Shown here: in pieces, positions 39,601-52,008 of the stretch | Layout: each line of letters begins with the position of its first letter | How positions within the stretch are numbered: position 1 is the stretch's first letter | DNA from: Parabacteroides sp. FAFU027 | Lineage (GTDB): Bacteria; Bacteroidota; Bacteroidia; Bacteroidales; UBA7332 | Direction of reading: 5' to 3' | DNA: 64,000 nucleotides | Assembly: GCF_022808675.1 (NCBI RefSeq) | Contig: NZ_JAKZKV010000001.1 | Coordinates: 310,001 to 374,000 of the forward strand | Translations under genes and position numbers: made by a program | Notes under the pieces: model-generated | What the model was told of the DNA's origin: nothing | The model's input: the letters and a program-made list of their open reading frames with translations, nothing else | Database searches by the model: none

Positions 39601-40047
39601 TTACTCTTTTGACAATATAGTAAGTAGAATCTCTTTCACTTTTTGGGAAGAAACGAGCAGCTCTTCGAGTTCCTGATCGCTGAGTAATGCCAGCTTCTCC
39701 TTCAGGCCCTCTGAGGCACTTCTCTTTATTTCTTCAAAATTGTGTAATCCCTTTTCGGTCAACACAATATTAATCACACGCCTGTCTTTCGGGTCATTAT
39801 GACGTTCCACATACCCCTCCTCGATCAGCTTATCCACAATCACTGTCACGTGTGGCTTGGGCATATCCAGGCATTTTCCGATATCCGTCATGGAAAGGGT
39901 TCCGTGCCTTTTCAGGCTCCCCAAAACAAACATCCCCCCCGGCGTAATCGGTGATTTGGCGCGCATAGGACGCGAAATGCTTTTATACAGCAACGGGTGA
40001 ATCGAAATCAGGTTTTCGGCAATAATATTAATATTTGGTTCAGTCAT
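39601..40047 (-). CDS. MarR-family transcriptional regulator of the efflux operon
   Basis: 148-aa winged-helix repressor. It has helix 1 and 2 dimer parts, the HTH (GSLKRHGTLSMTDIGKCLDMPKPHVTVIVDKLIEEGYVER, about 44-82) and the wing NDPKDRRVINIVLTEKG, which is the MarR hallmark. As the first gene of the operon it probably represses marR-emrA-emrB-tolC through the TCATT/AATGA site at 40057, releasing when a toxic ligand binds. Confidence 0.93.
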   Translation of the reverse strand: MTEPNINIIAENLISIHPLLYKSISRPMRAKSPITPGGMFVLGSLKRHGTLSMTDIGKCLDMPKPHVTVIVDKLIEEGYVERHNDPKDRRVINIVLTEKGLHNFEEIKRSASEGLKEKLALLSDQELEELLVSSQKVKEILLTILSKE

Positions 40048-40056
40048 CGCAATTAT

Positions 40057-40072
40057 TCATTTGAATTAATGA
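40057..40072. promoter_or_regulatory. Candidate MarR operator
   Basis: TCATT (40057-40061) and AATGA (40068-40072) are inverted around a 6-bp core. It overlaps ATTCATTTGAAT, a second palindrome. The site lies between the -7 element (40076-40083) and the marR start. Confidence 0.4.
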
Positions 40073-40075
40073 TTA

Positions 40076-40083
40076 CAAAAGTA
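40076..40083 (-). promoter_or_regulatory. -7 element for the marR-emrAB-tolC operon
   Basis: Reads TACTTTTG on the minus strand, 29 nt before the ATG at 40047. Confidence 0.55.
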
Positions 40084-40374
40084 TAACTATTATCAATGCG
40101 AAACTTATTAGTTAAGATGAATTGGGTGGAAAAGAGTATAGCGAAGATACTTTTAACAGAACAGCAAGCTCAATTAAAGACTATTTCCGAGAGTGAGGAC
40201 ACCAGCGTTCAGCGGCTCTAAGCTGCTTGACGCGTAACAAATAAAGAAATCAGAGAAAACAAATCACCTTTCCCGATCATTTAATCCTCACATTATCATT
40301 TTGACAGGAAAACACTCCTATCAAACAAAAAAGGCAAGCAAATCCCCCGACATACGACTTTTACCCGATTCCCG

Positions 40375-40429
40375 GAGCGTATGTAGACCATACGTGGAGC
40401 ATACATGGAGGATACGTGGAGCATCAGCA
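40375..40429. repeat. 11-bp-period array (GAGCATACGTG type)
   Basis: Five consecutive 11-mers: GAGCGTATGTA, GACCATACGTG, GAGCATACATG, GAGGATACGTG and GAGCATCAGCA, starting at 40375, 40386, 40397, 40408 and 40419. Confidence 0.8.
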
Positions 40430-40667
40430 GTATAAAACAGGGGGAATTTTGAAGTTTCGATAGTAACAAAATGTCAAAGCGGATGCATCGGAAGAATCTC
40501 AGCTTTCCCGAAAGCATCAACCTTTGGAAAAGTTGGCTATAACCGGAAATCACCCAGAGCTTCAACACACCGCAAGCACAGTCTCCTCTATCCTTAAGCA
40601 CATTTCTGATTAAACTGATAAAGCAGAGTTATACTATTAATACAGTGATATCACAGTCCTATATAAG

Positions 40668-40771
40668 ACTGTAATAACACTGTATTACTACTGTGTCAAT
40701 ACTGTGATACTACTGTGATATCTCACTTAATGGTGTGTTCATGGTATATCTATGATATGCTTATGATAACA
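40668..40771. repeat. 11-bp-period array (ACTGTGATACT type)
   Basis: Five 11-mers in register: ACTGTAATAAC (40668), ACTGTATTACT (40679), ACTGTGTCAAT (40690), ACTGTGATACT (40701) and ACTGTGATATC (40712). After a break three more follow at 40739, 40750 and 40761 (TCATGGTATAT, CTATGATATGC, TTATGATAACA). Confidence 0.8.
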
Positions 40772-41169
40772 CTCCGAAACGAACAAAAAACGGAGATACC
40801 CCACCCCAAAGGCTCCCTCATCGAGAGTCTTTGGGTAAATGAAAAAATCTCCTCTTTCACTTTTCCCTACGAGGGAGCTATTGTAATACGTCTCCGGTGT
40901 CAATAAGGCACTCAATATCCAGACGAGATTAACAGCTGTCTCTTCTGCCGGAGTATAGGTAGTTTTTAACGCTGACAGATCTATCGACACTGCCAGGTTA
41001 TCGGTACGTGATCATTGGGCGGTTAATTAGGCGGACTGGTATTCTCATCCCTCGAAACTGTCAGCGTGCTTGCATCTGACAGCGTTATTAAAAACAGCAT
41101 CGCTCCTCACCCCATTATCATTCTGAAAGTAAAACCAGCCAATCCCGTATTTTTTATCAAACTGACTAC

Positions 41170-41246
41170 ATGTGGACAACTGTGGAGCATATGTGGAGTT
41201 GCTGTGGAGCATATGTGGAGTTGCTGTGGAGCTGCTGTGGAGGAAG
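41170..41246. repeat. 11-bp-period array (TGTGGAGCATA type)
   Basis: Seven units in register, the last six exactly 11 bp: TGTGGAGCATA, TGTGGAGTTGC, TGTGGAGCATA, TGTGGAGTTGC, TGTGGAGCTGC and TGTGGAGGAAG, starting at 41181 and every 11 bp after. Alternation of two unit types gives a 22-bp higher-order repeat. Confidence 0.9.
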
Positions 41247-41539
41247 AACGGAGTTGGGTGCTATGAAAACCGCATATTCTTGTGACAAAATGGCAAATGC
41301 TCACTTTTCCAAATTTTGCAACTCATACCTCCTAGTTATCGTTAGCAGGCATTACTTCAAGTAGCCGATAGTAACATCTCGAAAGGAGTTTCTGCAATAG
41401 ATATGAAACATTTTTTTCAATATGAAGGTGGTAAAGCAGAAATAATCGGAAAGGAATGGTTATTTTTGATTCTTGTTCGAAAAATCAAATAATATTGGTG
41501 TGGAGATTTCCATTTATTATCGGGTGATTTTCACATTAA

Positions 41540-41634
41540 GGTAAATCCGGAGGCTTTGATATTCTAACGACGAAGACAGGAGCCTCTCGCCGAACGACAT
41601 ACTGCGGTTTTATTTTGTATGTAGTAGTTATTGG
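41540..41634 (-). repeat. Structured dispersed repeat, inverted copy
   Basis: The reverse complement reads AACCGCAGTATGTCGTTCGG, then GAGAGGCTCCTGTCTTCGTC, then AAAGCCTCCGGATTTACC, and aligns with the direct copies at 44351 and 47244. It ends where the integrase remnant begins. Confidence 0.75.
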
Positions 41635-41987
41635 CATATTATGGAGAAAATATGGTTGAATATATGCCAATTTCAAAACAAGCTTATCATCTTTGCGGTG
41701 AACCCGACAAGCCGGAGCAACATGTTTTTGAAGATTTACCAGACCCCTATTGGAATTCGGGCCCATTAAAGCGTTGGATAAAATCCGCAGGAATTACACG
41801 AAATATTACGTTTCATTGCTTCCGTAATACTTACGCAACCTTGCAACTTGCAGGCGGTACAGATATTTACGCCGTTTCCAAGTTGTTAGGCCACACCAAT
41901 GTAAAAACAACACATATTTATGCTAAAGTGGTAGATGAAAAGAAAGAAAAAGCAGTACACGCCATAAAGTTGAACATCAATAAATAA
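41635..41987 (+). pseudogene. N-terminally truncated tyrosine recombinase (integrase)
   Basis: Only the C-terminal part of a phage/transposon-type integrase remains (about 115 residues). The catalytic residues of boxes II and III are visible: His and Arg in FHCFRNTYA, the box-II His in LLGHTNVKTT, and the tyrosine nucleophile in THIYAKV. The first catalytic Arg and the whole N-terminal domain are missing. Homologous sequence starts near VEYMPISKQA (41652), directly after the dispersed repeat, so the break probably happened at the repeat. Its stop lies 9 nt before the nuclease-like gene, which may use its old transcript. Confidence 0.8.
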
Positions 41988-41996
41988 TAACCTACT

Positions 41997-44342
41997 ATGC
42001 CTAAAAGTAGAAAAAGAAAATTTCCAAAGAAAAATCCAAAGAAGAGGAATCCTAAACCATACGAAGTCGTTAAGCAAGAATTTGTTCAAATGGAAAATCC
42101 TTTTCCAGCTGATATTCCATTTGAGAAAAGAATAGAGTTTCTACTCGAAATAGGCAACAAAGCAAAAAACGACTTTGAAAGTGATTACCCAAAACTGATT
42201 CACTTCTTCAAAGAATATGATTCTTTGTATTTATGCTCTTTTTGTGCATATTATTTTTCGCTAAATAAAGAGGGGATTGATGAAGAAGCTGTTAATGGTT
42301 ATCTTGACTTTGCCCCCTTTCACCTTGAAATTTTGCAATGTATCTCATTGATGTTTGAGCAAAACCTTTCGGCGAAGCCACTACATGAAAGTATTGAAGA
42401 ATTTAAAACAACCATTAAAAACCTTAGCCAGAATCATTCTTTTATGAGTTTTCTGTTAGTAGAGAAAGCGGAAACCCAAGAAGACATTAGCAAAATGCTA
42501 TTGAGAACAGAAATGATGAACCACACCCGAGCGGTGAGAAATTGGGCATTTGTTCAACAAATGGAAACCACAGCTTATGATTTAGCCGAATTGATAGAAG
42601 ACCGCTTTGTTACTTCGCTAGGTTTTAGTCCTAAAAATTTTCTTGACATTCTCTTTAGTTTAGTTTCTCTTACAGAAGAAAAAATAAATATTCATCTCAG
42701 AAAAACCTCCTCTTTTTGCAGGATGAAAAAATATAATGAAGTGTTTGATAAATACGAGAAATGCTTTAGGCATGTGAAATGCACCGATGATTCGACAAGA
42801 AAAAGATTATGGGATAGGTATGGAAAGGATATCAAAACACTAAAAGCACTATTACTACAGCATTCCGATTTGTTTTTATCAGACATTTTCACGCATAGTT
42901 CATCCGAGATTCACAGTCATTTATCAGGCGAAATTCCAGAAAATGAGATTTGCAATGTCTTAGATAAGCTCAGTTTTAAATTTGGTGAACTCTCGCAGAT
43001 AAATAAAGACCATATATTTTTGGATAATCCGGTTCATTCAAAACCATTTATAAATATAGATGGGGATAAGTATTTCTCTGTTATCACACACATGTTCAGT
43101 CACCTTGGAGTGGACTTACTTGAAAAGTTTATTTCGAACGACAACGAATTGAAAAAAGAATATGCTCTAAAAAAAGGGAAATATCTCGAAGCGAAAGTAG
43201 AGCAACTATTCAGGCAATCCTTTCCCGATGCTCAGATTTTTACCGGGAGTTTATGGAAATGCCCAACAGAAAATAAAGAATTTGAAAACGACTTAATCGT
43301 ATTAATAGAAGATTTTGCAATAATAGTAGAATGCAAATCTGGCACCGTATCACCACCGGCAAGGCGTGGTGCAACTGAAAGACTTTCCGGAACTTTACAG
43401 AAACTAATCATAGAGCCTTCTGAACAAGCAATTCGCTTTGAAAATTACTTAAAGAAGCACAAACAGACACATACATTTAAAACAAAATCCGGGGCAAAAA
43501 ATCAGATAGACAGTACTAAAATCGAATACTACGTGCCGCTTGGGGTTACTCTCTCAAACCTGGGATCAATAGGTTGTAACCTTAAAAATTTAATCGATTC
43601 AAAAATTACCTCTCACAAGTTAAGTGAATTAGCTCCCTCAATAAGTTTGACGGATTTAGAAGTAATATTTGAAGTACTTCCTTTACAAGCAGAAAAAATA
43701 CACTATTTGTCAAGAAGAAGGGAGTTTGAGGCACATCTGAATTTTCGAGGAGATGAAATAGATTTGTTCGGCTTCTATTTAGATAATGGATTTAATATTG
43801 GAGAGACAGAATACGACGAATTATTCCACATTGATTTGACATTGAAATCAAAAGCACTTGACCCGTATTTTATTGGAAAACATAGAGGGGTTAATGTAAA
43901 GAAACCATATTTAAGAAAGACCAAGTATTGGAACGATTTGCTAGTAACGCTTGAGAAAAACGCCAAGAATTGGCTGCATATGTCGTACATCTTATTAAAT
44001 ATGCCAGAAGAGGATCAACTTAAATTTGAGAAGACTTTAAAACATCTTTCCGATAGGGTTATAAAGGGCAAGTGTATTCAACGGCACAATTGGCTAATTA
44101 TGGATTGTGGCCCGAAAAGAAGAAAGTATGCAATAGTTGGGTATCCATATAAGGACACAGATAAAGAAACTAGAAATGCTATTATTAACGACATTGTCGT
44201 TTCGTGCGATAAAGAAAACATTAGAGGAATTGTGATATTAGGATATAACTTAGATTCTAAAAATTACCCATATTCTGTCGTTGCAGGAAGTCTCAAAACC
44301 GATTTCTTCGATAGTTTGGAATTGAAACATCAAATAGAGTAA
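41997..44342 (+). CDS. Large protein with PD-(D/E)XK nuclease-like core (candidate defence gene)
   Basis: 781-aa protein I do not recognise as a named family. The first ~20 residues are Lys/Arg-rich (KSRKRKFPKKNPKKRNPK), then comes a long helical region to about 390. A restriction-nuclease-like core follows: an acidic helix in KGKYLEAKVEQLF (about 398-410), then FENDLIVL with D432, and IIVECKSG with E445 and K447, the spacing of a PD-(D/E)XK (NERD/Mrr-like) site. The C-terminal half (about 560-781) has no motif I know. It is AT-rich compared with the core genes, sits between an integrase remnant and a BRO-N pseudogene, and is bounded by inverted copies of one repeat. Anti-phage activity is inference from context. 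Confidence 0.7.
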   Translation: MPKSRKRKFPKKNPKKRNPKPYEVVKQEFVQMENPFPADIPFEKRIEFLLEIGNKAKNDFESDYPKLIHFFKEYDSLYLCSFCAYYFSLNKEGIDEEAVNGYLDFAPFHLEILQCISLMFEQNLSAKPLHESIEEFKTTIKNLSQNHSFMSFLLVEKAETQEDISKMLLRTEMMNHTRAVRNWAFVQQMETTAYDLAELIEDRFVTSLGFSPKNFLDILFSLVSLTEEKINIHLRKTSSFCRMKKYNEVFDKYEKCFRHVKCTDDSTRKRLWDRYGKDIKTLKALLLQHSDLFLSDIFTHSSSEIHSHLSGEIPENEICNVLDKLSFKFGELSQINKDHIFLDNPVHSKPFINIDGDKYFSVITHMFSHLGVDLLEKFISNDNELKKEYALKKGKYLEAKVEQLFRQSFPDAQIFTGSLWKCPTENKEFENDLIVLIEDFAIIVECKSGTVSPPARRGATERLSGTLQKLIIEPSEQAIRFENYLKKHKQTHTFKTKSGAKNQIDSTKIEYYVPLGVTLSNLGSIGCNLKNLIDSKITSHKLSELAPSISLTDLEVIFEVLPLQAEKIHYLSRRREFEAHLNFRGDEIDLFGFYLDNGFNIGETEYDELFHIDLTLKSKALDPYFIGKHRGVNVKKPYLRKTKYWNDLLVTLEKNAKNWLHMSYILLNMPEEDQLKFEKTLKHLSDRVIKGKCIQRHNWLIMDCGPKRRKYAIVGYPYKDTDKETRNAIINDIVVSCDKENIRGIVILGYNLDSKNYPYSVVAGSLKTDFFDSLELKHQIE

Positions 44343-44350
44343 GTAAACAT

Positions 44351-44518
44351 TCTCCGTTCAGCATAGCTTAATAAACACCAATATAACAAAATGCAGCATG
44401 CCGTTCGGCGTATGACTCCAGCCTACGTCGTCAAAAAATCAAAGCCTCCGGCCTTACCAAAACAAAAATATCCGACCTAAGCACGCCACTTCAGTCGGAT
44501 GTTTTTTATTTAAAACCA
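44351..44518 (+). repeat. Structured dispersed repeat, direct copy A
   Basis: About 168 bp aligned over its whole length to copy B (47244-47410). It contains GCCGTTCGGCGTATG, a hairpin CGTA-GAC...-TACG region, AAGCCTCCGGCCTT, and ends in an intrinsic terminator. Confidence 0.8.
44468..44507 (+). terminator. Intrinsic terminator inside repeat copy A
   Basis: ATCCGAC (44470-44476) pairs with GTCGGAT (44494-44500), followed by GTTTTTT. It may end transcription of the nuclease-like gene. Confidence 0.75.
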
Positions 44519-44632
44519 GCAGTTGAAAACTAAGTCACTGCAACTTGACACATCATACAGAACCTACAAGATAAAATTACCATAACTTTTGAGGGTAATT
44601 TTTTGAACAATAGAGTAGATGACTTCCAAATT

Positions 44633-44860
44633 ATGAGCAACGCCCAAATATCCATCCGTTATTTTTGACGACCGCGAAGCACGAGCCGCCTGGGACGAAC
44701 AAAAATCCAAATGGCGGTTTAGTGTGTTGGATATTGTAGCTGTGCTTACTAACTAGGACGATTACACCAAAACCCGCAACTATTGGAAACATCTAAAAGC
44801 CAAATTGAAAAAGAGAACAGTGAGTTTGTTAGTGACACTACCCAGTTGAAACTTTTAGCA
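44633..44860 (+). pseudogene. BRO-N-type phage antirepressor remnant
   Basis: Translation across frames gives MSNAQISIRYF, then DDREARAAWDEQKSKWRFSV LDIVAVLTN stop DDYTKTRNYWKHLKAKLKK and ENSEFVSDTTQLKLLA. This matches the N-terminal BRO/antirepressor domain common on Bacteroidota mobile elements. Two frameshifts (near 44666 and 44815) and an in-frame TAG inactivate it. Only the N-terminal third of the usual gene is left. Confidence 0.75.
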
Positions 44861-45010
44861 AATCAACCAAAAACCTCATTAGGTCGTTCGGCGTATGGCT
44901 TCTGCCCAAGAAATGCACCTTAGATATAAGGACACTGTAAAATCAGAAAATGACACTGTAAATGACACTGTATTTTATCTGATAAAGGAAAACGACAAAA
45001 TAACTACAAC

Positions 45011-45039
45011 TGGAATCAGCGGTTAAATAGCTATCGGGA
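45011..45039. repeat. 29-bp exact repeat, copy 1
   Basis: Begins TGGAATCAGCGGTTAAATAG and is identical to 47668-47696. Similar but diverged sequence continues for about 55 bp further in both copies. Confidence 0.85.
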
Positions 45040-45484
45040 AACTTCCTCAACAAAGGATTGTCATCAATGAAGGTATATTTCTTCCCTTTTTTAGCGTAGC
45101 TTATAAACAACCAATACAACAATGACATACCACAGTTGATCACTCGGTGTATGGCAACACTCTCCGTAGGTTATCATATAAACTTAACCCCTCTTTTGTG
45201 CGAATATATTCATAGCACAACTCAGATATCAGACTTGAAAAAAGGCTTTATTATCTATAATCTGCAACAATTGCCTGTTTCGAATTTCGCTAAAGGGAAA
45301 ATCCGCACCTAACTTGCTTTCCATGTTAAAAGTTTGGTTAAATTTGCCGCTACAACATCGTTTCCATCAGGTAAAGCTTCATCTAAAAATGAAACTATGT
45401 TTCGCTAAGGCTAATTCAACCTGCTTCAATCCGAATCGATGTTTATGTTATTATGAAACTAAATCTAATTAACCCGGAAAAAGA

Positions 45485-47026
45485 ATGAGATTAAAAAAAG
45501 TAATCCTCGCTTTAAGTTTATGCCTCTATATGATGGTTCAAGCTCAAACCCCGACTAGCAAGGGAGATGACTTAATAAAACAGGCAAAAGCCCGATATGA
45601 ACAAAAAGATTTTACATCTTCGCGTTCTCTCTACAAACAGGCCTTTGATGCTTTTGCAGCAGCCGGAAGCTATAAACAGGCAGTTGAATGCGGAATATAC
45701 GTCAGCAATCTTTATCACAGAGAATTCCTTTATAAAGAGGCCTTCGATATGTGTCGCACATTGGATCAGATGATTGCTAATGCAGGACAGACTCAGCATA
45801 AAACACTATACGACCTCTTCTTTCTGGTAACCAAGGAACGGGAAAACATGTACCTGAAACTTAAAAATCCGGTTCAGGCAAAAGTTCAGTTGGACCGACT
45901 GCAGGAACTGGCAAATCAATCGGACAATCAGGATATCCATAATGACTATCTGTATAGCAAAATGAACTACCACTACTCTTTTGGACAAAATACAGAAGGC
46001 GATGCGACATTCTCCGAATTGATTGCCAAATACCGCAAACAGAAGAACTATGATAAAGTGACAGCATGTTACAAAACGCTGATCGGAGTTGCTACCCGCG
46101 CCAACAATGCACCACTCGTAGCTCGTACTTATGACAAGCTGATTGCATGGCTTGAAACTGCAAAAACAATGAATGCTCAGGACGAACTGAGTGTCGCTAA
46201 AAGGAAATACAACGAAAGCCTGCAAACGATAAAGGAAAAGGATGACGCGTTAGCCACTAAAAAGCACATTATCGGTGGACTGATTACTCTGATCGTAATT
46301 CTTGCAGCAGGTCTTGCAATTCTTATCGTATTGATGATTCGTAATCTGGCGGTAATTGCCCGGCAGAAAAAAACAATCCGCATTGCTAATGAACACAATG
46401 AACTGAAATCTCAGTTTATCAATAACATCTCAGCTCAGATGGCTCCGGCATTGGATGCTTTGGATCAATCAGCCGGCAGGATAACAGGAGCTCAACATTT
46501 GAGCGTACAAATCAGCGCATTGAAGAGTTTTAGTAAACATATCCAGGATCTTACAACTCTGGAAAATTCTTTATCAGAAACATATGAACTCAATGACAAT
46601 TGTAATGTCGGTAAATTGTGTGATGAATTGATAAGCGGAATTAAAGGAGAGTTGAAAACAGGCGTTACCACTTCACTTGATGTGACTGCTCTTCAATTGA
46701 AAACCAACACCGAACAACTGACTTTTCTATTGAATCATTTACTGCGAAATGCAGCTTATCATACTGAAAGCGGGAAAATTACTCTCGAATTTAAGAAACG
46801 TGCAGCTCATGTCTTCCAGTTTTCTGTTACGGATACAGGTCCGGGAATTCCAGCTGAACAACGCGAAGAAATATTCAAACCGTTCAGCGGCATTAAGGAT
46901 CTTACACAGGGTGATGGTCTTGGATTGCCTATCTGCTCTCTGATTGCTATGAAATTAAATGGCAGTCTGACACTTGATCCGACTTACACAAAAGGTTGCC
47001 GCTTCATACTTAAAATAACCGCATAA
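45485..47026 (+). CDS. Sensor-kinase-like protein lacking the phospho-acceptor His
   Basis: 513-aa membrane protein. Signal peptide (1-20), TPR-like periplasmic helices (about 25-230), one membrane span (about 262-286), then a DHp-like helix and a HATPase_c domain. The H-box reads FINNISAQMAP where active kinases have a His at the position of A317, so it cannot autophosphorylate in the normal way. The ATPase boxes look intact: LLRNAAYHT (N), DTGPGIP (G1), IFKPF (F), GDGLGLPIC (G2). It may bind ATP and act as a scaffold or phosphatase-like partner, or be a recent degenerate copy. No response regulator is adjacent. A strong terminator follows. Confidence 0.8.
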   Translation: MRLKKVILALSLCLYMMVQAQTPTSKGDDLIKQAKARYEQKDFTSSRSLYKQAFDAFAAAGSYKQAVECGIYVSNLYHREFLYKEAFDMCRTLDQMIANAGQTQHKTLYDLFFLVTKERENMYLKLKNPVQAKVQLDRLQELANQSDNQDIHNDYLYSKMNYHYSFGQNTEGDATFSELIAKYRKQKNYDKVTACYKTLIGVATRANNAPLVARTYDKLIAWLETAKTMNAQDELSVAKRKYNESLQTIKEKDDALATKKHIIGGLITLIVILAAGLAILIVLMIRNLAVIARQKKTIRIANEHNELKSQFINNISAQMAPALDALDQSAGRITGAQHLSVQISALKSFSKHIQDLTTLENSLSETYELNDNCNVGKLCDELISGIKGELKTGVTTSLDVTALQLKTNTEQLTFLLNHLLRNAAYHTESGKITLEFKKRAAHVFQFSVTDTGPGIPAEQREEIFKPFSGIKDLTQGDGLGLPICSLIAMKLNGSLTLDPTYTKGCRFILKITA

Positions 47027-47043
47027 AGTGTCATTGCAAGCAT

Positions 47044-47087
47044 AAAACGCTCACTTTTCACAGGATTGAAAAGTGAGCGTTTTTTTT
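47044..47087 (+). terminator. Intrinsic terminator after the sensor-kinase-like gene
   Basis: A perfect 17-bp stem (47044-47060 with 47067-47083), loop CAGGAT, then a T-run. Confidence 0.95.
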
Positions 47088-47243
47088 ATTATTAGGGTTC
47101 TACTGGTTTTAGTATGGGTTAACATTCTTAGCAACCTTTACAATTGAATCTTTAAGGTTAATACAATGCGTGAGCAAAAGTCTGAAGGACTTTAATTTGA
47201 ATAACCACGGGTGAAAACCCGTGGAAGAATAAATAACCATCTA

Positions 47244-47410
47244 TCCGTTCGGCGTAGCCTGATTTACAACCGATAAACAATCAAAACCGCAGTAAGCCGT
47301 TCGGCGTATGGCTCCGGCCTACGTCGTGAATAATCAAGGCCACCGGCCTTACCAAACAAAAAACATCCGACTAAAGCACACCGCTTCAGTCGGATGTTTT
47401 TCATTTAAAC
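47244..47410 (+). repeat. Structured dispersed repeat, direct copy B
   Basis: Best preserved copy. Consecutive hairpins are visible: GCCGTTCGGC, CGTATGGCTCCGGCCTACG (7-bp stem with one bulged T), AAGGCCACCGGCCTT, and a final terminator ATCCGAC...GTCGGAT with T-run. The order is the same in copy A. Confidence 0.8.
47363..47402 (+). terminator. Intrinsic terminator inside repeat copy B
   Basis: ACATCCGAC (47363-47371) pairs with GTCGGATGT (47389-47397), followed by TTTT. Confidence 0.75.
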
Positions 47411-47514
47411 CCGACAGTAGAGAGTATATGCGGAGAAGAAAGCCACCAATCTCCGGAAAACATACGGAAATTACCCTACCCAACAACAGATTTACCTTAC
47501 CGGGGTAATCTACT

Positions 47515-47569
47515 GCTCCGATACTCCTCCGATATTGCTCCGATACTCGTCCGATCATCCGCGATCATT
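47515..47569. repeat. 11-bp-period array (GCTCCGATACT type)
   Basis: 11-mers GCTCCGATACT (47515), CCTCCGATATT (47526), GCTCCGATACT (47537), CGTCCGATCAT (47548) and CCGCGATCATT (47559). Confidence 0.85.
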
Positions 47570-47667
47570 CTCTGCATAGCGCAAACTATCACAATCAGCA
47601 AGTAAAGCTCAATACTTGCAAAGAATGTTCTTCTGCGGGCTATGTGATAACCGCGATAATATCCGAT

Positions 47668-47696
47668 TGGAATCAGCGGTTAAATAGCTATCGGGA
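47668..47696. repeat. 29-bp exact repeat, copy 2
   Basis: Identical to 45011-45039. Together with repeat copies A and B it shows that the flanks of the sensor-kinase-like gene are partly duplicated. Confidence 0.85.
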
Positions 47697-47934
47697 CGCT
47701 GCACCCACAAGTGACTACCATCAATGAACATATATTCCTTTCTCTTTCATCTTACCACCCGACTAAAGACCGACGCCTGCGACACTCCACAACCGCACAA
47801 CCCCGTAAGTGTGACCGATACATAATGCCAGAGCTGAGTCCGGCATATACCGACAACACTCCTGCATTGACAAAAACCACTCCCTCTCCCACCGATTCAT
47901 CCAGTCAAACTTTCCGCTGTCCATTAAAAATGAC

Positions 47935-47942
47935 TATCTTTG
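47935..47942 (+). promoter_or_regulatory. -7 element for hisIE
   Basis: TATCTTTG followed by CC, 29 nt before the ATG at 47971. Confidence 0.6.
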
Positions 47943-47970
47943 CCGCCTGCAAGCAAACTAATAGACAATT

Positions 47971-48564
47971 ATGATCGACTTTAATAAAATGGAGGGATTG
48001 GTTCCCGCCATCATCCAGGATGAACAGACCAACAAGGTATTGATGCTCGGTTTCATGAACGAAGCTGCTTATCAGAAAACAGTAGAAATCGGCAAAGTAA
48101 CCTTCTTCAGCCGCACTAAAAATCGTCTTTGGACGAAAGGTGAAGAAAGCGGAAACTTCCTGTTGGTAAAAAATATCGCTGTAGATTGCGACAACGACAC
48201 ATTGCTGATCAAGGTAAATCCGGTAGGCCCGGTATGCCACACTGGCGCGGATACCTGCTTCGAAGAGATCAACGAAAACCCGATCCAGTTCCTCGCATAC
48301 TTGCAGGACTTCATCACCCGTCGTCACCAAGAGATGCCTGAAGGTTCTTACACCACTTCTCTTTTCAAAAAAGGGGTAAACCGCATGGCGCAGAAGGTAG
48401 GCGAAGAGGCTGTAGAGACTGTTATCGAAGCGACCAACGGTACCGACGAAGGGTTCCTTTACGAAGCTTCTGACCTGATCTACCACCTGATCGTATTGCT
48501 GACCAGCAAAGGCCACCGCATCGAAGACCTGGCTATGGAGCTGAAAAAACGTCACAAAGAATAG
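47971..48564 (+). CDS. hisIE: Bifunctional phosphoribosyl-AMP cyclohydrolase / phosphoribosyl-ATP pyrophosphatase
   Basis: Steps 2 and 3 of histidine synthesis in one 197-aa cytosolic protein. The N-terminal HisI domain (about 1-105) has [19 protein letters not shown] and the metal-binding [11 protein letters not shown] and CHTGADTC. The C-terminal HisE domain (about 108-197) has [28 protein letters not shown] and [10 protein letters not shown]. It is not with other his genes here, which suggests a split his pathway in the genome. The ABC ATPase gene follows after 39 nt. Confidence 0.95.
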
Positions 48565-48603
48565 TTCGTCAAACTTAATCCTGCACCTCATACTGAGATC
48601 CTC

Positions 48604-49284
48604 ATGGAAGTATTGGTACATTACCAGGGAGTAGATATTTCCCGTCAGGACAACGTTGTTCTGAAAAATGTAGAACTGGAATTGCGCAAAGGTGAATTCC
48701 TCTACGTCATCGGCAAGGTAGGCTCCGGAAAGAGTAGTCTGCTCAAAACCATGTACGCTGATGTGCCCCTTGAGAATGGCGTTGCCAGCGTACTTGGGTA
48801 CGACCTGCGCCACCTGAAGCGCAAACAGGTACCGTACCTGCGCCGCAAGATGGGGATCGTATTTCAGGACTTCCAGTTGCTGACCGACCGTACCGTATTT
48901 GAGAACCTTCGGTTTGTGCTCAAATCGACCGGCTGGAAAAACAAGGAGGATATCCGCCACCGCATCAACGAAGTGCTGCAACAGGTGGGTATGAAGTTTA
49001 TGGACAACAAGATGCCACATGAACTTTCGGGAGGAGAGCAACAGCGTGTGGTGATCGCCCGTGCCCTGCTCAACCATCCGGACATCATCCTGGCCGATGA
49101 GCCGACCGGCAACCTCGACCCGCAAACAGGGGATCAGATCGTACAGCTCCTGCAAAGCATTTGCGAAACCGGCACCGCGGTAATCATGACCACGCACAAC
49201 CACCGTTTCGTGAAAGAATTCCCCGGAAAAGTGATGATCTGCGAAGATGAACAGCTGATTATATCGGAACACTCATCTTTGTAA
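48604..49284 (+). CDS. ftsE: FtsE-like ABC transporter ATP-binding protein
   Basis: 226-aa ATPase. Walker [16 protein letters not shown] (about 37-51), Q-loop [16 protein letters not shown], signature [16 protein letters not shown] (about 141-156), Walker [13 protein letters not shown] and the switch His in MTTHNH are all present. The Q-loop and signature wording match FtsE, which with FtsX regulates septal peptidoglycan hydrolysis. FtsX is not adjacent, so the symbol is probable rather than certain. It probably shares a transcript with hisIE. Confidence 0.8.
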
Positions 49285-49299
49285 ATCAATTATTTGTTA

Positions 49300-49307
49300 T
49301 AAATTTG
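49300..49307 (+). promoter_or_regulatory. -7 element for lysC
   Basis: TAAATTTG followed by CAC. The transcript would carry a leader of about 100 nt that includes the hairpin at 49333. Confidence 0.6.
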
Positions 49308-49332
49308 CACGACTTTTTGAGTCAGAAAAGAT

Positions 49333-49377
49333 AAACCGCAGGAACAGATCGGACGATCATAGCGAATGCGGTTTTTT
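49333..49377 (+). terminator. Terminator or attenuator in the lysC leader
   Basis: AAACCGCA (49333-49340) pairs with TGCGGTTT (49367-49374), followed by more T. It sits between the lysC promoter and start. It may simply end ftsE transcription, or it may attenuate lysC. A second small hairpin GACTTTTTGAGTC lies just upstream. Confidence 0.5.
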
Positions 49378-49413
49378 ATATAATCATACAATCCTCTTAA
49401 TTTACAACGAAAA

Positions 49414-50739
49414 ATGAAAGTTTTAAAGTTTGGTGGCACTTCTGTAGGTTCTGCACAAAGAATGAAAGATGTGGCCAAATTGATCTGTGACGGCGATAAA
49501 AAAATCGTAGTCCTGTCAGCCATGTCGGGTACAACCAACACCCTCGTTGAAATTTCCGATTATCTTTACAAAAAGAACCCGGATGCTGCAAGCGAGATCA
49601 TCAACAACCTGGAGAAGAAATATGCAGGTGTAGTTAATGAATTGTTTACAACAGAGGAATATAAGAAGAAGACACTGGATGTATTAAAAGGCATCTTCAA
49701 CGATATCCGCGCTTTGACCCAGGATCTGTTTACCATGTTCGAGGAAAAAGTGGTTTTGGCACAGGGCGAATTGATGTCAACCGCGATGGTGACAAACTAT
49801 CTGCAAGAGACCGGCATTAAAGCCGCTTTGCTTCCTGCGCTTGACTTTATGCGTACAGACAAAAATGCAGAGCCGGACTTAAACTACATCAAGGAAAAAA
49901 TCGCTATCCAGCTGCAAAACACACCTGATTCTGAAATCTACATTACTCAGGGATTCATTTGCCGCAACGCTTATGGCGAGATCGACAACCTGCAACGCGG
50001 AGGTAGTGACTACACCGCTTCATTGCTGGGAGCTGCGGTTAAAGCTGACGAAGTTCAGATCTGGACCGACATCGACGGTATGCACAACAACGACCCTCGC
50101 TTCGTGGATAAAACCACTCCGGTTCGCGTGCTGAACTTCGACGAAGCAGCTGAACTGGCATACTTCGGTGCGAAAATCCTTCACCCGACCTGTATCCTGC
50201 CAACAGCATTGGCTAACATCCCTGTTCGCTTGCTGAACACCATGGAGCCTAAAGCTCCGGGCACACTGATCTGCAACGAATCGGAACCTAATAAAATCAA
50301 GGCGGTAGCTGCCAAAGATGGTATTACCGCTATCAAAATCAAATCGGGCCGCATGTTGCTGGCTTACGGTTTCCTCCGTAAAGTATTCGAAATATTCGAA
50401 TCGTATCAGACAGCGATTGACATGGTAACCACTTCTGAGGTTGGAGTTTCGGTAACGATCGACAACGCTAAAAACCTTCAGGAAATCGTTGACGATCTGA
50501 AAAAACTCGGAACCGTAACCGTTGACAAGGACATGGTGATCATCTGTGTAACCGGTGACCTGCAATGGACCAACCTCGGCTTCGAGGCCAAAGTGGTGAA
50601 CGCATTAAAAGGAATCCCGGTTCGTATGATCTCTTACGGTGGTAGCGACTACAACATCTCATTCCTGGTACAGGCTGACGACAAGAAACGCGCCCTCCAG
50701 GCATTGAGCGACAACCTGTTTGCTGAAGATAACAAGTAA
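49414..50739 (+). CDS. lysC: Aspartate kinase
   Basis: Phosphorylates aspartate, the first step to lysine, threonine and methionine. 441 aa, monofunctional. Kinase domain: KFGGTSVGSAQRM at the start, SAMSGTTNTL, RGGSDYTASLLGAAV, WTDIDGMHNNDPR. The C-terminal part from about 305 holds two ACT domains (IKIKSGRMLLAYGFLRKVFEIF and VICVTGDL...), the usual site for lysine or threonine feedback. lysA follows after 81 nt with a terminator between, so both are in one pathway but can be uncoupled. Confidence 0.95.
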   Translation: MKVLKFGGTSVGSAQRMKDVAKLICDGDKKIVVLSAMSGTTNTLVEISDYLYKKNPDAASEIINNLEKKYAGVVNELFTTEEYKKKTLDVLKGIFNDIRALTQDLFTMFEEKVVLAQGELMSTAMVTNYLQETGIKAALLPALDFMRTDKNAEPDLNYIKEKIAIQLQNTPDSEIYITQGFICRNAYGEIDNLQRGGSDYTASLLGAAVKADEVQIWTDIDGMHNNDPRFVDKTTPVRVLNFDEAAELAYFGAKILHPTCILPTALANIPVRLLNTMEPKAPGTLICNESEPNKIKAVAAKDGITAIKIKSGRMLLAYGFLRKVFEIFESYQTAIDMVTTSEVGVSVTIDNAKNLQEIVDDLKKLGTVTVDKDMVIICVTGDLQWTNLGFEAKVVNALKGIPVRMISYGGSDYNISFLVQADDKKRALQALSDNLFAEDNK

Positions 50740-50748
50740 TCATATCTC

Positions 50749-50776
50749 TACCCCTTCCGCAAGAAGGGGTATTTTT
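50749..50776 (+). terminator. Intrinsic terminator between lysC and lysA
   Basis: TACCCCTTC (50749-50757) pairs with GAAGGGGTA (50763-50771), with a 5-nt loop and T5. The T-run is short, so read-through into lysA is possible. Confidence 0.8.
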
Positions 50777-50820
50777 CAAATATACTCAGGTAAATAACAA
50801 TAAAAACTATATTTCTAAAG

Positions 50821-52008
50821 ATGAATACTAAAGGAAATTTCCCCGTAGAGAATTTTAAGAAATTACAGACTCCGTTCTATTTCTACAATACGGACTTGCT
50901 TCGTGAAACGCTTGACGTTGTAAATCAGGAAAGCAATAAATACGATAACTTCCACGTACACTATGCAATCAAAGCGAACGCTAACCCCAAATTGCTCAAA
51001 ATCATCCGTGAGCAGGGATTGGGCGTTGACTGCGTGAGCGGCGGCGAGATCCTGGCTGCATTGAAAGCTGGTTTTTCTGCAAACAAAATCGTTTTTGCCG
51101 GTGTAGGTAAAGCCGACTGGGAAATCAATCTTGGTTTGGATCACGACATCTTCTGCTTTAATGCTGAGTCAATTCCAGAACTGGAAGTAATCAACGAACT
51201 GGCTGAAGCAAAAGGCAAAGTAGCATCAATCGCATTGCGTATCAATCCTGACGTAGCTGCTGACACTCACCACTATATCACTACCGGTCTGAAAGAGAAC
51301 AAATTCGGCATCAGCCTTTCTCACATGGATCATGTAATTGATGTGGTCGCTTCAATGAAAAACCTGAAGCTGATCGGTCTGCACTTCCACATCGGATCTC
51401 AAATCCTGGATATGGGCAACTTCAAAAGCCTTTGCGTACGCATCAACGAACTACAAGACAAACTGGAAGCCCGCAATGTAAAACTGGAATTAATCAATGT
51501 AGGTGGAGGTTTAGGTATCGACTACCAACAGCCTGAACAGAACCCAATCCCGGGATTCGCTGCATACTTCGAAACTTTCCACAAACACCTGAAACTGCGT
51601 GCAGGACAAGGCGTTCACTTCGAATTAGGACGTTCTATCGTATGTCAGTGCGGTAGCCTGATCACCAAAGTGCTTTACGTAAAAGAGGGTGTAAATAAGA
51701 AATTCGCTATCGTAGATGCCGGTATGACCGATCTTATCCGTCCGGCTCTTTACCAGGCTTACCACAAAATCGAAAACATCACCTCTGAAGGTGAAATGGA
51801 AGCTTACGACGTAGTAGGTCCTATCTGCGAATCGTCTGATACTTTCGCGAAAGCGCTTGACCTGAACAAAACAAAACGTGGCGACCTGATCGCTATGCGT
51901 TCTGCCGGTGCTTACGGTGAAATCATGGCTTCTCAGTACAATTGCCGCCTGTTGCCGGCGTCTTACCTGACTGAAGATTTCGTAGTAGTTGAAGAAAACG
52001 AAGACTAA
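50821..52008 (+). CDS. lysA: Diaminopimelate decarboxylase
   Basis: PLP enzyme that makes L-lysine from meso-diaminopimelate, the last step of the pathway. 395 aa. The PLP lysine is in HYAIKANANP (about residues 43-52), the specificity helix in GLHFHIGSQI, the glycine-rich phosphate loop in NVGGGLGIDY, and CESSDTFAKA near the C-terminus. Alternatives such as ornithine decarboxylase are excluded by the LysA-type HIGSQ and ESSD segments. Highly adapted codon use. Terminator at 52030. Confidence 0.95.
   Translation: MNTKGNFPVENFKKLQTPFYFYNTDLLRETLDVVNQESNKYDNFHVHYAIKANANPKLLKIIREQGLGVDCVSGGEILAALKAGFSANKIVFAGVGKADWEINLGLDHDIFCFNAESIPELEVINELAEAKGKVASIALRINPDVAADTHHYITTGLKENKFGISLSHMDHVIDVVASMKNLKLIGLHFHIGSQILDMGNFKSLCVRINELQDKLEARNVKLELINVGGGLGIDYQQPEQNPIPGFAAYFETFHKHLKLRAGQGVHFELGRSIVCQCGSLITKVLYVKEGVNKKFAIVDAGMTDLIRPALYQAYHKIENITSEGEMEAYDVVGPICESSDTFAKALDLNKTKRGDLIAMRSAGAYGEIMASQYNCRLLPASYLTEDFVVVEENED

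Follow-up and report, generated by a model that had tools for sequence, protein, structure and literature searches.

Membrane pseudo-histidine kinases conserved in Bacteroidales that probably signal without phosphotransfer

The window analysed here, the whole stretch of 64,000 nt from Parabacteroides sp. FAFU027, contains a gene for a 513-aa protein that has the fold of a histidine kinase and carries Ala at the position of the phospho-acceptor His. The features of this gene, with the evidence used for each of them, are as follows.

45485..47026, plus strand: pseudo-histidine kinase gene, 513 aa (open reading frame and family searches)
45485..45550, plus strand: signal peptide, residues 1-22 (reading of the sequence; helix 2-19 in the model)
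45551..46108, plus strand: TPR-like solenoid of helices (residues 23-208), presumably periplasmic (model, Pfam, LGN structure)
46271..46342, plus strand: membrane span, approximately residues 263-286, with positive charges after it (reading of the sequence; continuous helix in the model)
46346..46477, plus strand: DHp-like helix 1, residues 288-331 (alignment, model, comparison with HK853)
46433..46435, plus strand: codon 317 (GCT, Ala), acceptor-His position (alignments)
46493..46567, plus strand: DHp-like helix 2, residues 337-361 (model and hairpin counts)
46592..47020, plus strand: GHKL (HATPase_c) domain, residues 370-512 (PF02518, 1.7e-18; model; PDB folds)
46736..46738, plus strand: His418, replacing the first N-box Asn (alignment)
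46793..46822, plus strand: beta-hairpin motif restricted to the family, residues 437-446 (window protein KKRAAHVFQF, consensus KKRGAHTHQF)
46913..46915, plus strand: Asp477 within the G2 box, which reads GDGLGL (GTGLGL in most relatives)
47044..47083, plus strand: terminator-like hairpin with a T run after it, immediately 3' of the gene (consensus scan, 17 pairs)

The domain order is a signal peptide, TPR-like helices, a long helix comprising the membrane span and DHp-like helix 1, then helix 2 and the GHKL domain. In the AlphaFold2 model of the protein (mean pLDDT 84) nine helices precede the long helix, which starts at residue 209, and residues 22-186 align to the TPR structure of LGN with Z 17.6 in the structural comparison. 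The signal, TPR-like part and membrane span had been described in a first-pass annotation made from the sequence alone, and the model agrees with all three, the Pfam TPR match (TPR_12) being below the cut-off. The other Pfam matches at E<=1 are HATPase_c (PF02518, 1.7e-18) and a weak HATPase_c_2, also below the cut-off; at this threshold there is no match to the HisKA model, and no PAS domains were found, as only the HATPase models and the weak TPR are reported. The HATPase_c (GHKL) domain of a HisKA-type kinase is thus present both by Pfam and by fold match, and the top structural match is DivL (PDB 4q20, Z 20.9), tied with other kinases. The model of the window protein and that of family member L030, used below for comparison, are monomers with pTM 0.45 and 0.46, respectively, and an uncertain arrangement of domains, and in both of them pLDDT is modest around the DHp helices (blocks of about 54 to 82). 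The terminator scan is consensus-based and yielded 4 candidates, compared with 2.7 expected in shuffles, the hairpin of this gene having 17 pairs.

The genes downstream are hisIE and a gene for an ABC ATPase, and upstream there are a piece of an integrase and a gene whose product matches NERD weakly; none of these four neighbours is a receiver protein. The integrase piece (41631-41987) is the C-terminal part of a phage-type integrase (PF00589) and adjoins the gene at 41997-44342, whose 781-aa product has the NERD match below the cut-off; together they are perhaps an island remnant. No RNA families were detected at the gathering score in 40000-52000.

The gene is flanked by repeats, as already noted in the first-pass annotation, which took them as a sign that the gene had been moved or copied as a block. 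The repeats do exist, but they belong to dispersed intergenic families and thus provide no evidence for a block move; a block duplication is likewise unsupported. The repeat found at 44388-44526 and 47284-47421 is about 70 nt long, with the core GTTCGGCGTATG-CTCC-GCCTACGTCGT, and has 17 matches in the genome, a number that counts the query and its own hairpin; contig C6 carries five of the 17, at 54-60 kb. Its two copies at this gene share the adjoining hairpin and are alike beyond the core (84% over approximately 134 nt), and a local copying event could still account for this similarity of sequence. The repeat at 45011-45090 and 47668-47747, starting with TGGAATCAGCGGTTAAATAGC, represents a second dispersed intergenic family with 14 genome matches including the query. 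Moreover, runs of an 11-nt unit occur on either side of the gene (40371-40425, 41181-41246, and 47511-47554).

The family set was collected from related loci and from two further genome samples, one of the order and one of the family to which a Bacteroides genome belongs. The first set of related loci comprised 55, of which 53 (L019-L071) fall in the family, and altogether 97 distinct family ORFs were gathered. Family members score at least 339 bits with the family profile, and other kinases at most 167. For the core alignment three family cores shorter than 180 aa and two relatives (shorter than 300 aa or duplicate) were left out, so that 94 family cores were compared with 54 relatives; the latter are not a random sample, as 9 come from the genome of the window, 15 are encoded beside family loci and 30 were taken from other genomes searched. 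The split between the family and the relatives was recovered in 40/40 bootstraps, with SH 1.0 and aLRT 100 (the aLRT and SH values quoted here are those of unrooted splits, and in the printed rerooted trees supports may sit one branch off). By these sequence comparisons, the window protein belongs to a monophyletic and conserved Bacteroidales family.

With the score thresholds applied, the family was found in two of the four genomes of the window's own family, in at least 6/295 genomes of the order, in at least 46/301 genomes sampled from the family that includes a Bacteroides genome, and in at least 1/296 genomes of the phylum sample, this one being the window's own genome; the last three counts are lower bounds, since no genome had more than five first-look candidates scored. 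Closest to the window protein are a copy with 95% identity that a contig end cuts short (L012/L019) and L020 (55%). Among the open-licence papers, judged on the title and the start of the abstract, no description of this family was found.

The DHp helix reads FINNISAQMAP, as reported by the first-pass annotation for this plus-strand ORF, and the Ala317 that it had placed at the acceptor position is indeed there: HK853 from T. maritima aligns to the family profile through this stretch gaplessly, with its His at residue 317, and the His of the relatives is aligned to the same residue. All 53 ordinary related kinases that have a residue at this position have His, while none of the 95 distinct family ORFs does (two of the 97 lack a residue at 317). 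In particular, the family has Ala in 64 ORFs, Ser in 13, Thr and Glu in six each, Gly in three, and Asn, Arg and Phe in one each; Tyr, the residue of DivL in this position, does not occur among the 95 ORFs. In the first related-locus set, 52 members reach the site, again with no His. Two relatives, L087 and L005, showed Ser in one profile alignment due to misalignment and both have His, and L100 is the relative without a residue there. The Phe, Arg and Asn are those of L150, L148 and L139, which together with L140 (Thr) also have an altered residue 318 and show the most diverged pseudo-acceptor sites seen.

Hence Ala317 is genuine, being neither an error nor a one-off; the family is old and the loss of the acceptor His is fixed across it. 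A sequencing error or a fresh mutation is ruled out by the absence of His from all 95 ORFs, and a pseudogene by the open reading frame in the window and by dN/dS values of the relatives far below 1. A shifted acceptor at His304 or His352 was considered as well, and neither residue is universal in the family: position 352 is His in 73/96 rows, Asp in 15 and Asn in five, and position 304 is His in 59/97 rows and Asn in 29.

The comparison of the 94 family rows with the 54 His-type relatives shows that the acceptor was not lost alone. The acidic residue at H+1 (Glu or Asp318) is found in 0/94 family rows vs. 53/54 relatives, 89/94 family rows having Gln; Arg at H+3, in 0/94 vs. 52/53; Thr, Ser or Asn at H+4 (position 321), in 0/94 vs. 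53/54, this position being Pro in all 94 family rows, including Pro321 of the window protein, where a HisKA kinase would have Thr or Asn. As L070_+_6518 is a frame-split ORF with the DHp letters out of register, only 93 of the 94 rows behind the DHp counts are sound. In the GHKL domain, the first N-box Asn (position 418) is present in 0/94 vs. 47/54, with His in 91/94 family rows; the N-box Lys or Arg (425), in 9/94 vs. 54/54, with Tyr in the window protein; the F-box Arg (466), in 0/94 vs. 48/54, with Pro in 90/94 family rows and in the window protein; and the G2 Thr or Ser (477), in 1/94 vs. 47/54, with Asp in 89/94 family rows. In contrast, the scaffold is kept: Asn422 is present in 93/94 family rows, Gly452, Gly476 and Gly480 in 94/94 and Gly478 in 92/94 (54/54 relatives in each case), and the spacing from Phe467 to Gly476 is the same 8 residues in 94/94 family rows and 46/54 relatives. 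Asp450 and Gly454 are partly kept (72/94 each vs. 54/54), position 450 being Asn in the remaining 22 rows. The six residues Asn422, Asp450, Gly452, Gly454, Gly478 and Gly480 are present together in 69/94 family rows including that of the window protein, which has the G1 residues Asp450, Gly452 and Gly454 and also Gly476.

Therefore, the ATP-binding boxes, initially described as intact, are so in their scaffold only: His418, Tyr425, Pro466 and Asp477 replace Asn, Lys, Arg and Thr, and the window protein does not have the complete N, G1, F and G2 boxes of a HisKA-type kinase. The initial picture of an intact ATPase with a lost acceptor is not supported either, since the remodelling extends to the nucleotide and catalytic site. 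Given Asp450 in 72/94 rows, nucleotide binding and some chemistry may nevertheless be possible.

The docking hairpin is changed in length as well. The 53 relatives with His have 46-55 residues between positions 317 and 360 (median 52), whereas the family has 32 in 69/94 rows, 47 in 16, and 42 in six including the window protein; the remaining three hairpins are of 40 (the frame-split L070), 41 and 49 residues. Thus 25 rows, including the window protein and L070, keep 40-49 hairpin residues, the shortest relative having 46. A HisKA kinase would combine a hairpin of the usual length with the H+3 Arg; the window protein has 42 residues, and the Arg is found in 0/94 rows. In the model of L030, a 32-residue member, helix 1 ends at residue 323, eight residues past the acceptor position (315), vs. 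14 residues past it in the window model. In the aLRT tree the 32-residue class is contained in a clade of 70, the row of L070 being the sole exception (split 97.4), with the window protein and L020, both with 42 residues, as sister to this clade (split of 72, 84.5). FastTree groups the same 70 (printed support 0.60), placing the window protein with L020 and two 47-residue members. The 32-residue class is therefore sound, while the order of steps is only suggested: the hairpin seems to have been shortened stepwise, from about 52 to 47, 42 or 32 residues. As 21/22 losses of Asp450 and 22/22 losses of Gly454 fall in the 32-residue class, the decay of the nucleotide site would have followed the trimming of the hairpin.

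The family also has conserved residues of its own. The beta-hairpin motif Arg439-x-Ala441-His442-x-x-Gln445 (RxAHxxQ) is found with all four residues in 81/94 family rows and in 0/54 relatives, and Gln318, Pro321 and Leu323, adjoining the lost acceptor, are conserved in the family. The GHKL domain is the most conserved part, with a mean entropy of 1.22 bits compared with 1.75 in the TPR part, and dN/dS between pairs of members lies between 0 and 0.18 where dS is defined, among the 25 pairs listed out of 87. This pattern argues that the core is under selection for a function different from ordinary phosphotransfer. A kinase fold under selection with its catalytic residues lost is what characterizes a pseudo-histidine kinase, and such a fold is found here; the initial suggestion of a pseudokinase is therefore strongly supported and extends to the whole family.

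By profile score, the nearest proteins outside the family are ordinary Bacteroidales sensor and hybrid kinases, which have the same DHp-GHKL core but differ in having mostly the SHE[IFL]RTPL box with His, Glu or Asp, Arg and Thr present, and in having the N-box Lys and mostly the N-box Asn, F-box Arg and G2 Thr or Ser. To our knowledge, few bacterial pseudo-histidine kinases have been studied; the best known is DivL, which still works through a response regulator. Its Arg553 we take, by number (550+3), to be at the H+3 position. According to the DivL study (PMC4211667), the acceptor His is replaced by Tyr550, the protein has neither kinase nor phosphatase activity and binds ATP weakly, the response-regulator docking module is built from the last part of helix 1 and the first part of helix 2, and Arg553 is required for the binding of DivK~P. 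DivL and the window protein are alike in the DHp-GHKL fold and the replaced acceptor His, and differ in the residue at the acceptor position (Tyr vs. Ala) and in the sensor, DivL from Caulobacter having PAS domains and the window protein a TPR-like part. Moreover, DivL keeps the docking module and Arg553, in contrast to the family described here, which has no such Arg and a shortened hairpin; the hairpin region lost in the family is the one called the docking module in DivL.

The genes around the 53 family loci were compared as well. A uridine-kinase-like gene (the one scanned, from L021, matches PF00485) lies directly upstream, on the same strand and within 300 nt, in 30/53 loci; as it is absent from this place in the window and in other loci, no functional link is claimed. 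The genome of the window has its uridine-kinase-like homologues elsewhere; one of them is seen twice with identical scores (G000:C1:682721-684367 and G000:C7:27925-29571), perhaps a duplicated stretch or assembly redundancy. In 17/53 loci, including L021, L022 and L030, the opposite strand carries an ordinary kinase gene approximately 4 kb (3.8-5.6 kb) upstream, with a Na/Pi transporter gene and the uridine-kinase-like gene lying in between. The SHEIRTP box is seen in 13 of these 17 kinases, the other four being cut or broken ORFs. All 17 belong to the 34 loci carrying a conserved gene block, and the window is without this block. A TPR protein of another kind is encoded downstream in a few loci. 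No receiver domain was seen in the 25 commonest of the 170 Pfam families matched by 96 neighbour proteins chosen from 196; a case from one or two loci could be hidden among the rarer families.

The linked kinase is a candidate partner and bears on the strongest rival explanation, an action on another kinase as already proposed in the first-pass annotation: the protein would regulate a second, active histidine kinase by pairing with it through the DHp helices, as in RetS-GacS or ChrS-HrrS heterodimers. Its presence in 17/53 loci makes this explanation gain slightly, at the expense of both the main reading and the departure from two-component signalling discussed below, and the DHp and GHKL fold, kept according to the model and structure matches, would allow it too. 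There are precedents: the evolved pseudokinase ChrS forms heterodimers with HrrS (PMC9491836), and RetS acts on GacS by dimerising (PMC12189002). Both are kinase-fold proteins acting on another kinase. However, their partners are known, and ChrS became non-functional through a frameshift in its CA domain that arose in the laboratory, unlike the old and fixed loss in this family. In addition, the linked kinase always comes with the conserved block (17/34 block loci), so that mere conservation of gene order may explain it, and the block with the kinase is missing from the window; a shortened hairpin would be expected to match poorly with the full-length one of a partner. A search of the window's own genome for a full-length paralogue with His, proposed as a check in the first-pass annotation, yielded none of full length, the 10 further matches with E<=1e-5 starting at residue 262 at the earliest. 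On this evidence we regard a heterodimer with an active kinase as unlikely.

A retained ATPase or kinase activity that uses a different acceptor, either within the protein (e.g. His352 or His304) or in another protein, is improbable. The six scaffold residues, all kept in 69/94 rows including the window protein, and the frequent His at 352 and 304 would fit such an activity, but the N-box Lys, the first Asn, the F-box Arg and the G2 Thr are lost, and the candidate residues vary, with Asp or Asn in 20 rows at 352, Asn in 29 at 304, and Asn in 22/94 at 450. Some histidine kinases act mainly as phosphatases, and HisKA phosphatases use Thr or Asn at H+4; a phosphatase of response regulators, as suggested initially, is scarcely to be expected in a family with Pro at H+4 in 94/94 rows and with the H+1 acid gone from all of them. 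A DivL-like protein, i.e. a repurposed kinase whose input is a bound phosphorylated response regulator, would have the same fold and the same kind of acceptor loss, and DivL has the top Z, though tied; but DivL keeps its docking surface and Arg553 (PMC4211667), while this Arg is gone in 94/94 rows and the hairpin is shortened, which makes such a role quite improbable here. Still, rows with 40-49 hairpin residues, including the window protein, might hold a regulator, judging by hairpin length.

The reading we favour, and consider more probable than not, is that of a conserved Bacteroidales membrane pseudo-histidine kinase that signals by conformation and contact, probably without phosphotransfer. 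The TPR part, presumably periplasmic, would serve as the receptor, connected by one membrane helix to a DHp-GHKL core without His-Asp phosphotransfer, and this core would still dimerise. A signal outside the membrane would shift the helices and reposition the GHKL domain, which would then bind a partner via a new conserved surface formed by the RxAHxxQ hairpin and the region of Gln318, Pro321 and Leu323. The output step would thus consist of partner binding, the partner probably being other than a conventionally docked response regulator; in the less eroded members, including the window protein, weak binding of nucleotide might act as its gate. A further-reaching version, which we regard as tentative, is that the family has left two-component signalling entirely: the acceptor would have been lost, the docking module trimmed stepwise, the nucleotide site decayed in the most strongly trimmed lineages and a new contact surface acquired by the GHKL domain, leaving a TPR receptor that signals by protein contact alone.

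For annotation, these results mean that such genes should not be labelled as working sensor histidine kinases. The family with its hairpin intermediates provides a natural series in which to study what the histidine kinase fold does after the loss of phosphotransfer, and, if the family has indeed left two-component signalling, the living intermediates with hairpins of 47, 42 and 32 residues would reveal the order of loss.
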